Assembly: GCA_012798485.1 (NCBI GenBank)
Contig: JAAZND010000027.1
Location: forward strand, 1-32,688
DNA: 32,688 nucleotides
Direction of reading: 5' to 3'
Source: Candidatus Beckwithbacteria bacterium
GTDB taxonomy: Bacteria; Patescibacteriota; Microgenomatia; UBA1400; UBA1449
The notes under the pieces were generated by a model. The model made no database searches. It was not told where the DNA came from and saw nothing but the letters and a program-made list of their open reading frames with translations. Shown in pieces: positions 754 to 9,532 of this stretch (its first letter is position 1; every line of letters begins with the position of its first letter). The position numbers and the translations under genes are program-made.

Positions 754-985
754 CAAAAAACCCTTGCAGCTCACCAAAAAAAATTGGTTAGTCACAAGGG
801 CTTTCAAAAATTGAAGGCGGTGCCACCTTGTTTTATCAAATTGTCACCAATTTGAACTTAACAACCGACTCTTAAAAATGACATCGGTTTGAAGTGTGGT
901 TACGGACTTCTACCGGGAAAAACTACTCAGTGTAAACTTTTTGCCTTTCCAGCTCCAGGGCCCATTCTCCCTATCAACGCTCTTC
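754..985 (-). ncRNA. T-box leader RNA (tRNA-sensing riboswitch) upstream of the racemase gene
   Basis: T-box core ACAAGGUGGCACCGCC followed by CCCUUGU; alternative terminator CCCUUGU...GCAAGGG + U6 ends just before the racemase RBS (AGGAG) and ATG at 728. Confidence 0.85.
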
Positions 986-1017
986 TATAAGAAATTAGAA
1001 CATAAATCAAAAAATAG

Positions 1018-4598: not shown

Positions 4599-5528
4599 TC
4601 AGCTAGTAATTTGTAAAATTTTTTCTTCAATTCCTTTTTGATCAAGTTGATAATAATGTAAAAGTTCATCTAAACTACGACTCGACTGACCAAATTCACC
4701 CTTAACTCCATGACAAAAAACCGGCACAGGAAATTTTTCTGCCAAAAACTGAGCAATCCTACTTCCCAGTCCGCCAATAATCTGATGATCTTCAATGGTT
4801 AAAACTTTTTTGGTTTTTTGCGCTGACTGTAAAACCAAATCTTCAGCCAAAGGTTTAAGGCTATTTAAATTGATCAACTCAACATCAAGCTTTCCTACTA
4901 AGTTATTCGCTGCTTGCAAAGCAAAATAAGCCATCGGGCCAGCGGTAATAACTGTTAAATCACTACCTGGTCTCAAAACCTCTACCTGACCAATTTTAAA
5001 ATCACTGGTAAAGTTGGGTAGTTCATATTTGGATAAACGAATATAAACTGGCCCTTTTTGCTTAAAGCTTTCAAAAACCGCCTGTTTAGCTTGATTGTAA
5101 TCAGCTGGAGTTAAAACAGTTAAATTAGGTAAAACTTGAGTAATGGCCAAATCTTCCAAAGCTTGATGACTTCCTCCATCAGCAAAATTAGAAAAACCAG
5201 TATGATGTCCAGCAATTTTAACATCCAAATTTTGCAAACAGACAGAAATTCTTAATTGATCCCAATTGCGGGCTGGAGAAAAACAAGCAAAGGAAGACAC
5301 AAAAACAGTTTTACCTGTCATTGCAATTCCAGCAGCAATTCCCATCATATTTTGTTCTGCCACCCCACATTGAACTGCACGATTGCTAAATTTATCAAAA
5401 AACCAATAGCAGCGAGTTGATTCTTTTAAATCTGCTGTAATTACAAAAACATCTCTTTCTTTTCCTCCTAATTCCAAAAGACCTTGACCAAATCCATCAC
5501 GTAAAGAATATTTTTTTTTAAATTTCAT
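4599..5528 (-). CDS. Transketolase, C-terminal (Pyr/C domain) subunit
   Basis: SRCVAEQNMMGIAAGIA-like region, HHTGFSNFADGGSHQALEDLA, overlaps upstream N-terminal subunit. Confidence 0.88.
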   Translation of the reverse strand: MKFKKKYSLRDGFGQGLLELGGKERDVFVITADLKESTRCYWFFDKFSNRAVQCGVAEQNMMGIAAGIAMTGKTVFVSSFACFSPARNWDQLRISVCLQNLDVKIAGHHTGFSNFADGGSHQALEDLAITQVLPNLTVLTPADYNQAKQAVFESFKQKGPVYIRLSKYELPNFTSDFKIGQVEVLRPGSDLTVITAGPMAYFALQAANNLVGKLDVELINLNSLKPLAEDLVLQSAQKTKKVLTIEDHQIIGGLGSRIAQFLAEKFPVPVFCHGVKGEFGQSSRSLDELLHYYQLDQKGIEEKILQITS

Positions 5529-6432
5529 AGTTAGTTCGTAATTCTTTTAAAGCTTTAATTAATTCTTCTTCCGTGGGAACTCTTCCATGCCACACGGGGT
5601 CATCTTGCATGAAGCTTACTCCTTTCCCCGCAATGGTATGAGCAATAATCATCACGCTATGGTTATAAATAGCTTTAGCCTTTAAATAGGTATCAATAAA
5701 ATCATCAATATCATTCCCATCACATTCCAAAACCAACAAACCAAAAGCTTCATATTTTTCTTTCAAAAATTCAATCGGCATAACTTCATAAGTATAGCCA
5801 TCTATTTGAATTTCATTGCGATCCAAAATAAAAATCAGATTATCCAATTTATATTTTTGGCAAAACATATAAGTTTCCCAAACTTGACCTTCTTGCTGCT
5901 CTCCATCAGAGGTAATACAGACAACATAATTTTGATCTCCATTTTGCTTATGCGAAAAAGCCATTCCAGCAGCTAAACTAACTCCTTGTCCCAAAGAGCC
6001 AGAAGTGTTTTCTACTCCAGGTAAGTTCTGATTTAGTAAATTGGAAGAGAAATCTTTAGCTTTACCACTCCAACGTAAATCATTGAAAGCAATATTCTCA
6101 GCTTTGTAATATCTTTGAAAATGAGGGTGACCCTGAAGAGAAGAACCAAAATCTCGAAGAGTTAACAATTTTTTGGTGGGAAAAAATCCTCTCTGAGCTA
6201 AGGTGGCATATAAAACTGGACAAATATGACCATTTGATAAAATTAATTTGTCTCGATCTTGCCTCCATGGGTTTTGCGGATCGATATTTAAAAGATAAAA
6301 ATAAAGAGCAGTAAAAATATCAGCCATGCCCAAGGCTCCAGCAGCATGACCAGTTTGAGCTTGATAAAGCATCTTTAAAATATCTTGACGGACAACGCTC
6401 GCTATACCTTCTAATTTGGGCAGATTATGCAT
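5518..6432 (-). CDS. Transketolase, N-terminal (TPP-binding) subunit
   Basis: GHAAGALGMADIFTALYF, LILSNGH, ENTSGSLGQGVSLAAGMA, TSDGEQQEGQVWE; overlaps 4599-5528 by 11 bp. Confidence 0.9.
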   Translation of the reverse strand: MHNLPKLEGIASVVRQDILKMLYQAQTGHAAGALGMADIFTALYFYLLNIDPQNPWRQDRDKLILSNGHICPVLYATLAQRGFFPTKKLLTLRDFGSSLQGHPHFQRYYKAENIAFNDLRWSGKAKDFSSNLLNQNLPGVENTSGSLGQGVSLAAGMAFSHKQNGDQNYVVCITSDGEQQEGQVWETYMFCQKYKLDNLIFILDRNEIQIDGYTYEVMPIEFLKEKYEAFGLLVLECDGNDIDDFIDTYLKAKAIYNHSVMIIAHTIAGKGVSFMQDDPVWHGRVPTEEELIKALKELRTNYEI

Positions 6433-6469: not shown

Positions 6470-6475
6470 TATAAT
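6470..6475 (+). promoter_or_regulatory. Putative -10 box TATAAT upstream of fluoride riboswitch 1
   Basis: TATAAT sits 5-6 nt before the predicted aptamer 5' end; no convincing -35 seen. Confidence 0.45.
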
Positions 6476-6480
6476 AATAT

Positions 6481-6543
6481 AAGCGATGAAGCTCGCTTAT
6501 GCGGTTAGCGCTAATAGCTTCTACTTTATAGTAGAGGCTTTTT
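6481..6543 (+). ncRNA. Fluoride (crcB-type) riboswitch with intrinsic terminator
   Basis: AAGCG AUGAAGCU CGCUU stem-loop, second stem, UAAU, then AGCUUCUAC; same layout as the known crcB aptamer (GGCGAUGGAGUUCGCC...GCUAAUGACUCCUAC). Loop GAAGCU (6488-6493) pairs with AGCUUC (6516-6521), which is also the 5' arm of the 10-bp terminator hairpin (6516-6539) + U-tract. Confidence 0.85.
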
Positions 6544-6547
6544 ATAT

Positions 6548-8305
6548 ATGAAACAAAAAAACATATTTACAGAATTTAAAACAATAATCGAAAACCTAAA
6601 AATAGTTGCAAACAGTAGTCAAAACACTCTAATAACTGAAGAAGTTAAAAAACTAGAAGTAAAAATTGCTAAAAAGGAATTTTTATTAATTATTTTAGGT
6701 CAATATAAAAGAGGTAAAAGCACTCTTATAAATGCTCTACTAGCGCAAAAATTATTGCCGACCTCAATAATACCCCTAACCTCCATTATCACAATAATAG
6801 CTTATGGAGATAAACCAAAGTGTGTTGTTGAATTTTTTCATAAAAAACCAAAAATACTTTCTATTTCTAAACTCCCAGAATTTATTACCGAGGGGAAAAA
6901 CCCAAAAAATATTAAAGGGGTTAAAAAGGTGTTTATAAATTTACCCAATGATTTTCTAAAACAAGGAATTCGCTTAGTAGATACCCCAGGAGTAGGCTCA
7001 ATTTATCAACACAACACTGATTTAAGCTATAAGTTTGTTAAACAAGCAGATATGGCAATTTTCTTAATAAGTCCAGACCCTCCTATAAGCCAAGCTGAAT
7101 TAAAATTTTTACAAACAATAAAAAATGATTTAGCTAAAATCATTTTTGTACAAAATAAAATTGACCAAATTGAAGCTGGAGATTTACAAAAATCTTTTCA
7201 ATTTAGCCAAAAAGTTATTAATGAGGTTTTTGATAATAAAAAAATAAGACTTTATCAAGTTTCTGCCAAAAAAGGACTCGAGGGTAAAATTGAAAACAAT
7301 CCCGATAAAATACAAACCAGCAATATTATAAAACTAGAAGAGCAGCTTAAAAATAAATTCCTTTCCAAAAAAGACAATATTTTAATATTATCCCTAATTA
7401 TCAAAATCCAAAATCTTATTAAAGAACTTGAATTTGAAATAAAATTAAAACAAGAATCTCTAAGATTGCCAATTGAAAAATTAAAAGAAAAAACTGAATT
7501 ATTCCATCAAGAAGCGTTAAAAATTAAACAAGAAAAAGAAGATAGTAATTATATTCTTCAAGGTCAAATAGAAAAAATAATCAAAGAAACTTTAGTTAAA
7601 GACCTGGAAGATTTACAAAAAATTGAAATCCCCAATTTAAGACTTATGTTTAAAAATTTTACCCAAACCAATCTTAATTTGTCTGGATCTGAGTTATTAA
7701 AAACATTTAATCAGTTTATCGAAAAAACAATAAAAAATATCTTTAAGCAATGGCGTAAAGAAGAAGAAAAAAAGCTACAAAAAATTTTAAATAAAATTAT
7801 CATTCGCTTTTCTCATCAAAACAATCTTCGTATCCAAAAAATTAAACAAATATCATCTGAAATTTTTAATTTTGAGATTAATAAAATTGAAGATAATCTT
7901 CTATTTGCTAAAGAATTCGAATTTAGATTTGCCTTTGATGAATATAAAATTAACCTTGACTTTTATAGTCCACTAATTTCAAAATTACCAAAATTTCTCT
8001 CTCATAAATTGCTTTATCCCAAAATGGAAAGGGATTTATTGAATGAGCTCGATCGGCATTGTGGTCGTTGTCGTTATGATTTTAGTCAAAGAATTAATAA
8101 AAGTATCCTTGATTATCATAACAAATTAGAAAGAGACTTAGAACAAGCTATTAAAAATATTGAGATAATTTTGATAAAAACCATAGAACAAAAAGGAGAG
8201 CAAGAACAACAAGAGAAGATTATAAGCCTTAAGCTCAATCAACAAAGGTTAATGCTTAACAAAATAAAGAAAAAATTATTAGAAATCAATCGCTATGAAC
8301 TTTAA
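6548..8305 (+). CDS. Dynamin-like GTPase family protein (585 aa)
   Basis: G1 GQYKRGKSTLINALL, G3 DTPGVGS, G4 QNKID, long coiled-coil C-terminal part. Confidence 0.85.
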   Translation: MKQKNIFTEFKTIIENLKIVANSSQNTLITEEVKKLEVKIAKKEFLLIILGQYKRGKSTLINALLAQKLLPTSIIPLTSIITIIAYGDKPKCVVEFFHKKPKILSISKLPEFITEGKNPKNIKGVKKVFINLPNDFLKQGIRLVDTPGVGSIYQHNTDLSYKFVKQADMAIFLISPDPPISQAELKFLQTIKNDLAKIIFVQNKIDQIEAGDLQKSFQFSQKVINEVFDNKKIRLYQVSAKKGLEGKIENNPDKIQTSNIIKLEEQLKNKFLSKKDNILILSLIIKIQNLIKELEFEIKLKQESLRLPIEKLKEKTELFHQEALKIKQEKEDSNYILQGQIEKIIKETLVKDLEDLQKIEIPNLRLMFKNFTQTNLNLSGSELLKTFNQFIEKTIKNIFKQWRKEEEKKLQKILNKIIIRFSHQNNLRIQKIKQISSEIFNFEINKIEDNLLFAKEFEFRFAFDEYKINLDFYSPLISKLPKFLSHKLLYPKMERDLLNELDRHCGRCRYDFSQRINKSILDYHNKLERDLEQAIKNIEIILIKTIEQKGEQEQQEKIISLKLNQQRLMLNKIKKKLLEINRYEL

Positions 8306-8495
8306 TTTTATAACCGTTATTATTGGATTAATCTTTTCACCTCTTGCCGCTATTATGGCTTTTATTATTACTTATCAAGAATACTCACATCACTTTTCAG
8401 ATAAGAAAGAGCCTTTAAAATTATCTAGTCAAGCAGCCTTAATGACATTAATCTTTTTTTTAATTCTCTGTTTAATTATTGGTTTGTTAATTTAG
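8295..8495 (+). CDS. Small two-TM membrane protein (66 aa), translationally coupled to the dynamin-like gene
   Basis: Start ATG overlaps the upstream stop (ATGAACTTTAA); two hydrophobic segments. Confidence 0.65.
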   Translation: MNFNFITVIIGLIFSPLAAIMAFIITYQEYSHHFSDKKEPLKLSSQAALMTLIFFLILCLIIGLLI

Positions 8496-8508: not shown

Positions 8509-9381
8509 TTATTCAAATAATGGTAAATCATATTTTTCTAAATGTTTTAAAATAGTCACCGCCTGATAAGTTTGCTCAATATTGGCAATCCCAATAAATT
8601 GGGAGCGAGCAAAGCCACCATTTCCTTTCTGGCAAGCAATTAAAAAAGATAATAAAGAAGATTGTCTGGGAATTGAAATCTTTAATAAAATAAAACTCTC
8701 AACTGCCCAAAAATATTCCTCTAAATAATTAGCTCTCTCTATTTGTCTTTTTAAAAAATTTATAGTTTTTTTTAGTTTTACTAAGGGATAGTTAAGTTTT
8801 TTAAGAATTTTTAAGGCATAATATGTTGTAGATAATTCTGAACCTTTTATATTTCCAAAACCACCATCTGTATTTTCCAACGATAAAATGAAGTCAATAA
8901 TATTTTGATTTGCTTCATTTATATTAAAATTTTTACATAAAAAGGTTAAATAATATAAATCTTTTACTTCTCCTTCAACCAAGTCTAGGTAAAGCGTGTT
9001 GACTGAATTATCAGATAGTAAAAATTTTGTTTCAGCTTTAGCCTTAAATTTCTTTTTTTTAAAAATGTTTTTATTTGTAGTATTTTCTAAAATAAAAGGG
9101 GAGTATTTTTTAAATTCACTAATATCAATTTTTAATGCTTTATATGTTTGAACTGCAAAAAACAAAGATGAAATACACTTTAAATTTCCCTCCTTATCTT
9201 CATTTTTAAAAAAACGCATAATTTCGCTTATGGGTATTTGTTTACTATTAAGTAGTTTAAGCGTTTCCACAGCACACATGGTGTCTAAGGCAGATGATGG
9301 TGTAACTCTGGCAAAAAAATAACCACCATCCGAAAGATGGCGAGCCTGGAGATATTGAATAATGTGATTTTTATTAAACAT
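8509..9381 (-). CDS. Prenyltransferase / terpene-cyclase-like alpha-alpha toroid repeat protein
   Basis: Repeats DGGYFFARVTPSSALDTMCAVETL, TDGGFGNIKGSELSTTYYALKIL, GNGGFARSQFIGIANIEQTYQAVTIL. Confidence 0.7.
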   Translation of the reverse strand: MFNKNHIIQYLQARHLSDGGYFFARVTPSSALDTMCAVETLKLLNSKQIPISEIMRFFKNEDKEGNLKCISSLFFAVQTYKALKIDISEFKKYSPFILENTTNKNIFKKKKFKAKAETKFLLSDNSVNTLYLDLVEGEVKDLYYLTFLCKNFNINEANQNIIDFILSLENTDGGFGNIKGSELSTTYYALKILKKLNYPLVKLKKTINFLKRQIERANYLEEYFWAVESFILLKISIPRQSSLLSFLIACQKGNGGFARSQFIGIANIEQTYQAVTILKHLEKYDLPLFE

Positions 9382-9382
9382 A

Positions 9383-9466
9383 AAAAAGCTCCTACTAAAT
9401 TTTATAATAGTAGAAGCTATTAGTTTCTGTTTTCGGTAGAAACAATTAGGTGAGCCTCATCACAAT
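9383..9466 (-). ncRNA. Second fluoride (crcB-type) riboswitch with intrinsic terminator
   Basis: Reverse strand GUG AUGAGGCU CAC, stem GUUUCU/AGAAAC, UAAU, AGCUUCUAC; loop GAGGCU pairs with AGCUUC (G-U wobble where leader 1 has A-U), which is also the 5' arm of the terminator AGCUUCUACU...AGUAGGAGCU + U6. Confidence 0.82.
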
Positions 9467-9532
9467 AATATTTTTATATTATCATAAAAAACTAGTCTTT
9501 TGCAAAATTAAGTTCATAAATAAGTTTAAAGA

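Follow-up and report, generated by a model that had tools for sequence, protein, structure and literature searches.

Genes and leaders in the window

The 32,688-nucleotide stretch of Candidatus Beckwithbacteria DNA analysed here (the window) carries two short RNA leaders upstream of genes that point towards each other. The aptamer of leader 1 (6478–6525, plus strand) overlaps a 10-bp terminator hairpin (6516–6539, plus strand) and precedes a gene for a 585-residue dynamin-like GTPase (6548–8305, plus strand; PF00350, 93.4 bits) with no close NCBIfam equivalog. The end of the GTPase gene overlaps a gene for a 66-residue protein (8295–8495, plus strand), for which hydropathy and a seven-member alignment predict two membrane helices. 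This protein carries an ITYxEYxHHF motif and has no Pfam match above the cut-off. The idea that it represents half a CrcB was rejected, as it shows no CrcB profile similarity (probability 0.3%).

Leader 2 occupies positions 9463–9382 of the minus strand and runs into the start codon of a 290-residue protein of the prenyltransferase alpha-alpha toroid fold (8509–9381, minus strand; PF00432, 54.3 bits, cut-off 26.5). The AlphaFold model of the toroid has a mean pLDDT of 86.8 and a pTM of 0.86. Its nearest solved folds by Foldseek are GGTase beta subunits, and the TM-scores (0.4–0.67) and large rmsd indicate membership of the same fold class rather than close homology. The beta subunits of protein prenyltransferases bind zinc through Asp, Cys and His ligands, in a D-x-C pattern. 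A motif check against this pattern found D-x-C in none of six toroid members and no invariant His, so a prenyltransferase zinc site is not recognizable; the DxDD motif of class II terpene cyclases is likewise absent from all six. A candidate promoter just upstream of leader 2 (TTGCAA, 16 nt, GATAAT; 9478–9505, minus strand) came from a consensus scan and carries little weight, because the AT-rich sequence here shows no significant excess of such motifs.

Two further features were observed in the window. A tRNA-Met gene is closely followed by a T-box leader (793–986, minus strand; RF00230, 51.4 bits, below the gathering score of 93, E = 1.3e-8) with a terminator after it, and a broken racemase-like reading frame lies further downstream. 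A transketolase is split over two adjoining ORFs that encode its N-terminal and C-terminal halves (4599–6432, minus strand).

Aptamer and expression platform of leader 2

Leader 2 comprises a complete fluoride (crcB-motif) aptamer and an overlapping terminator, and very probably is a fluoride riboswitch of ordinary anatomy. Its RNA reads, from 9463 down to 9382, GUG AUGAGGCU CAC CUAAUU GUUUCU-loop-AGAAAC UAAU AGCUUC UACUA...UAGUAGGAGCU UUUUU, with the AUG at 9381. A 3-bp P1 (5′ arm GUG at 9461–9463, pairing with CAC at 9450–9452) encloses the pseudoknot-forming loop AUGAGGCU (9460–9453) and gains one extra pair reaching into the loop in the MFE fold. The P3 hairpin of that fold (9423–9443; GUUUCU at 9443–9438, AGAAAC at 9428–9423) is followed by UAAU (9422–9419) and AGCUUCUACU (9418–9409). 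The pseudoknot 5′ strand GAGGCU (9453–9458) forms six out of six pairs with the 3′ strand AGCUUC (9413–9418), which is also part of the terminator 5′ arm. All core bases are found: AUG after P1, U-N-A between P3 and the pseudoknot, and U after the pseudoknot. The bases seen in the crystallized aptamer (AUG, U-N-A-U and the U after the pseudoknot) are retained in both leaders.

Rfam evidence alone is equivocal for leader 2. RF01734 matches it at 9473–9404 (minus strand) with 22.6 bits (E = 0.034 in a scan of 4227 families, E = 2.8e-4 when the 1.17-Mb genome was searched with this family alone) and matches leader 1 at 6473–6530 (plus strand) with 28.1 bits. Both fall short of the gathering score of 34 bits, which is a database cut-off and not a structural feature; as a criterion it misses both leaders and was rejected. 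A second covariance model was trained on 16 leaders, all from other genomes, so that neither window leader was included. This held-out model delimits the leader 2 aptamer, together with the sub-gathering RF01734 match, at 9409–9468 (minus strand). It recovers leader 2 with 36.0 bits (E = 3.7e-8) and leader 1 with 48.0 bits (E = 1.6e-11), and the next-best window site has E = 0.26. The covariance-model check proposed in an earlier, sequence-only reading of this DNA thus identifies both leaders. A descriptor consisting of P1, AUG, the six-base pseudoknot, U-N-A-U/C and UA matches exactly leaders 1 and 2 in the window; its strict form had no matches in 100 Markov-shuffled windows, and a looser form had 0.67 per window. 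Five more weak RF01734 matches in the same genome were rejected by the descriptor and a clade model. Of weak matches in 19 relatives (E up to 0.05) these tests left only that in genome G034, and a match in G336 was discarded for lack of the fluoride core.

Covariation across 18 leaders supports the aptamer pairings. P1 and the pseudoknot are paired in 97.2% of cells, versus 90.6% in shuffles, and the pseudoknot alone in 99.1%. Both sides of a pair change in 14 cells, versus 3.6 in shuffles, at five pairs (three of six in the pseudoknot, two of four in P1); the outermost of the four aligned P1 pairs is absent in leader 2. The covariation score was reached by none of 500 shuffles, a comparison that related sequences may win even without structure. 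Such a kinship artefact is disfavoured here because pairing falls to 38–56% when the partner strand is slid and because the structure of the class is known.

Comparison of the two window leaders refines what the sequence-only reading had described. The UAAU, AGCUUCUACU, the GUUUCU/AGAAAC stem, the GUG/CAC P1 and the terminator are all present in leader 2 as it listed them. It had also taken the loop to be kept in both leaders, which is incorrect: the loop of leader 1 is AUGAAGCU, and the exact octamer AUGAGGCU occurs once in the window (9453–9460). The pseudoknot does contain a G-U in leader 2 (GAGGCU/AGCUUC) where leader 1 (GAAGCU/AGCUUC) has A-U. This change is one-sided, the 3′ strands being identical, and therefore not compensatory as had been proposed; the term is apt for P1, which shows one two-sided change (C-G versus U-A), and for P3, which is a different stem in leader 2. 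Similarly, the statement that structure is kept while sequence differs describes the wider alignment and the P1 and P3 of this pair, and not their pseudoknots. P1 is indeed weaker in leader 2 than in leader 1, and the two leaders might plausibly have different fluoride thresholds, a matter that sequence alone does not decide. The toroid leaders of genome G323 and of a Chloroflexi genome have the same 3-bp GUG/CAC P1, which therefore appears to be an inherited form and not a defect.

The aptamer of leader 2 lies in the 5′ UTR and overlaps its expression platform. The full-length leader has an MFE fold made up of P1, P3 and one hairpin of 11 bp (−20.1 kcal/mol, z = −3.03). This terminator hairpin (9418–9408 pairing with 9397–9387) and its six-U run together span 9382–9418 (minus strand); the first U closes the hairpin and the run reaches the AUG directly. 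The Shine-Dalgarno sequence AGGAG (9393–9389) lies inside the 3′ arm, 7 nt before the AUG. Because aptamer pseudoknot and terminator both use AGCUUC, they are mutually exclusive, and because the one hairpin has AGGAG in its 3′ arm and is followed by a U run, both termination and masking of the ribosome site are possible.

We infer the following switching scheme. Without fluoride, AGCUUCUACUA would pair with UAGUAGGAGCU; the resulting terminator would reach to the start codon and cover the Shine-Dalgarno sequence. Fluoride, as a magnesium complex, would hold the aptamer together and keep AGCUUC in the pseudoknot with GAGGCU, leaving the hairpin open and allowing the toroid gene to be transcribed and translated (fluoride-ON). 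Leader 2 would thus represent a compact natural design in which a single hairpin probably serves as both terminator and ribosome-site mask. Leader 1 would act likewise on the GTPase and the two-helix membrane protein, and the two leaders would define a small fluoride regulon without CrcB or CLC. The U-run is present in the window leader and in the CrcB leader of G034. In the toroid leader of G323 the same hairpin, with AGGAGC, precedes the AUG with no intervening U-run, a layout that speaks for translational masking in that genome; no strong downstream hairpin follows the toroid leaders of G529 and Kaiserbacteria.

Leaders, regulated genes and exporters in other genomes

The ligand class is fixed as fluoride because close relatives use the same RNA for CrcB. 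It precedes CrcB-DUF190-pyrophosphatase-MFS-enolase in G034 and MFS-CrcB-CrcB in G661; it also precedes pyrophosphatase genes in G323, in G348 (twice, with the two-helix membrane protein after each) and in G102. Pyrophosphatase and enolase are recognized fluoride targets and riboswitch-linked genes (PMC11139923). The linkage to fluoride-resistance genes is therefore made through near-identical leaders in relatives and not within the window. Together with the aptamer anatomy, the held-out model and the 18-leader covariation, it bears out the original assignment of leader 2 as a fluoride riboswitch.

A protein-pattern scan of 85,000 species' genomes showed that the toroid protein is rare, returning six relatives (G323, G529, G651, Kaiserbacteria, Chloroflexi and Gottesmanbacteria); none was found in viral contigs, phages or plasmids. 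The orthologues in G323, G529 and G651, the last of which is cut short, lie under the same RNA; these three are not independent, because they had been found earlier through the RNA and had seeded the toroid query. For the Kaiserbacteria and Chloroflexi toroids, for which the search was blind to the RNA, complete leaders are located immediately upstream. The Gottesmanbacteria toroid retains only the 3′ half of the leader and the terminator, in the terminal 125 nt of a contig, and the dynamin-like gene 2 kb away has a complete leader. The missing aptamer 5′ half of this toroid leader (L048, 1–125, plus strand) possibly reflects an assembly join of the two similar leaders.

The three genes are arranged differently from genome to genome. 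In the window, the GTPase and membrane protein genes face the toroid gene; in Gottesmanbacteria, the toroid and membrane protein genes face the GTPase gene. In G323, the GTPase and toroid genes diverge, and the membrane protein is under its own leader about 6.5 kb away. The dynamin-like gene is preceded by a leader in all three genomes where it was seen beside the other two. A phylum search for the membrane protein added one clear case, G102, where the order is leader-pyrophosphatase-membrane protein; it also returned a partial homologue in G598 with no leader nearby and a weak match in G663. Overall, other Patescibacteria and one Chloroflexi genome have these genes under the same RNA, beside a riboswitch-controlled pyrophosphatase and near an enolase.

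Several further loci were recorded as well. A fluoride island in G323 (L040, 5670–15096) contains four complete leaders and genes for the dynamin-like GTPase, the toroid, a 76-residue orphan, enolase, pyrophosphatase, a DUF211 protein, a VIT1-like protein and the two-helix membrane protein. The 76-residue protein, which has no Pfam match, follows the toroid (L040, 8404–8634, plus strand); in G348, a fluoride leader at the edge of a contig is followed by a similar protein start (L041, 1–145, minus strand). The Chloroflexi genome contains a second, divergent fluoride riboswitch (L051, 5762–5826, minus strand) ahead of genes for a MoxR-type AAA ATPase, a DUF58 protein and a DUF4129 protein (L051, 1982–5601, minus strand).

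The window genome (95.8% complete) contains no CrcB and no CLC match. Among 11 genomes examined, no CrcB or CLC match passes the cut-off in any of the nine that encode a toroid or membrane protein, an absence to be read with the incompleteness of the assemblies in mind; sub-threshold matches comprise one CrcB-like sequence in G651 and one CLC-like sequence in G529. The other two, with leader-CrcB arrangements, have CrcB above the cut-off and no toroid or membrane protein at those loci. Of 380 genomes of the phylum, a single one has CrcB above the cut-off. Since its absence is the norm, it does not itself show replacement, and we rejected it as strong evidence when taken alone.

Alternative readings and comparison with known systems

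The novelty of this locus is in the genes controlled by leader 2, not in the riboswitch itself. Fluoride riboswitches are reliable pointers to fluoride-handling genes, and here they point to three families without a known fluoride role, in genomes without a recognizable exporter. The recurrence of this combination of switch and gene in unrelated genomes suggests that a response to fluoride draws on genes with no earlier connection to it. We tentatively propose, at slightly less than an even chance, that a fluoride-response module separate from CrcB/CLC-F is made up of the toroid, the dynamin-like GTPase and the two-helix protein; reduced-genome Patescibacteria would use this module and would have passed it to Chloroflexi or received it from them. 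All three proteins may be protective, and the two-helix protein could be a new exporter or a membrane-protection factor.

The strongest competing explanation, a serious one although less likely than not, is that the three genes are passengers beside fluoride switches and contribute nothing to fluoride tolerance. None of the three proteins has a known fluoride biochemistry, the membrane-protein homologue of G598 stands without a riboswitch, and the rarity of CrcB makes a genome lacking it unremarkable. Against this, the genes are the first or second cistron right after the switch in several lineages and in varied arrangements, the Chloroflexi genome included. It is far less probable that the leaders have the fluoride fold but respond to a different ligand, like variants known in other riboswitch classes. 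Such a variant would explain the unusual downstream genes in the window and would fit the sub-threshold Rfam scores, but the ion-site bases of the known structure are all conserved, relatives have CrcB and pyrophosphatase genes behind nearly identical leaders, and the G323 toroid leader shares one stretch with a riboswitch-controlled pyrophosphatase, near enolase. Least probable of all is that leader 2 is a decayed duplicate of leader 1 that has lost fluoride binding and works only through its terminator/Shine-Dalgarno hairpin: its 3-bp P1, long AU-rich P3 and lower score would suit decay, but six pseudoknot pairs and every core base are retained, and leader 2 is closest to the leader of the orthologous G323 toroid gene (GUGAUGAAGCUCACCUAAUUGUU) and not to leader 1, which marks leader 2 as an old leader that was inherited with its gene and retained. 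Through the three small genes to which the riboswitches point, fluoride resistance in cells lacking CrcB and CLC-F becomes testable.

In the literature covered, we found no link of fluoride riboswitches to prenyltransferase-fold or dynamin-like genes, to Patescibacteria or to the Candidate Phyla Radiation; the supplement of the 2012 Science paper might mention one. Like protein prenyltransferase beta subunits and squalene-hopene cyclases (PF00432), the leader 2 gene product is a predicted toroid with GGF repeats (Foldseek E = 4e-5 to GGTase-I beta). The GTPase shares the Dynamin_N domain of bacterial dynamin-like GTPases (PF00350) and differs in being under a fluoride riboswitch in three genomes. 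CrcB/Fluc channels are likewise small membrane proteins under fluoride riboswitches, but the 66–72-residue protein has two helices rather than four.

Leader 2 shares with the RF01734 class its P1, P3, six-pair pseudoknot, core bases and a terminator that uses the pseudoknot 3′ strand. It differs in its sub-cut-off score, its 3-bp P1, its weak A-U and G-U pseudoknot pairs, a terminator U-run adjoining the start codon, a 3′ arm that doubles as the Shine-Dalgarno sequence and control of genes for which the papers covered report no link to this class. As in the B. cereus crcB riboswitch (Hertz et al. 2024, PMC11077080), pseudoknot and terminator compete for the same six-base strand. In that switch a wobble at pseudoknot position 1 (U17-G42) is critical for switching, and strengthening position 4 had no effect on function in vitro and increased basal expression in cells. 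Leader 2, in contrast, has U-A at position 1 and its G-U wobble at position 4, so by analogy the G-U may tune, rather than define, the switch.
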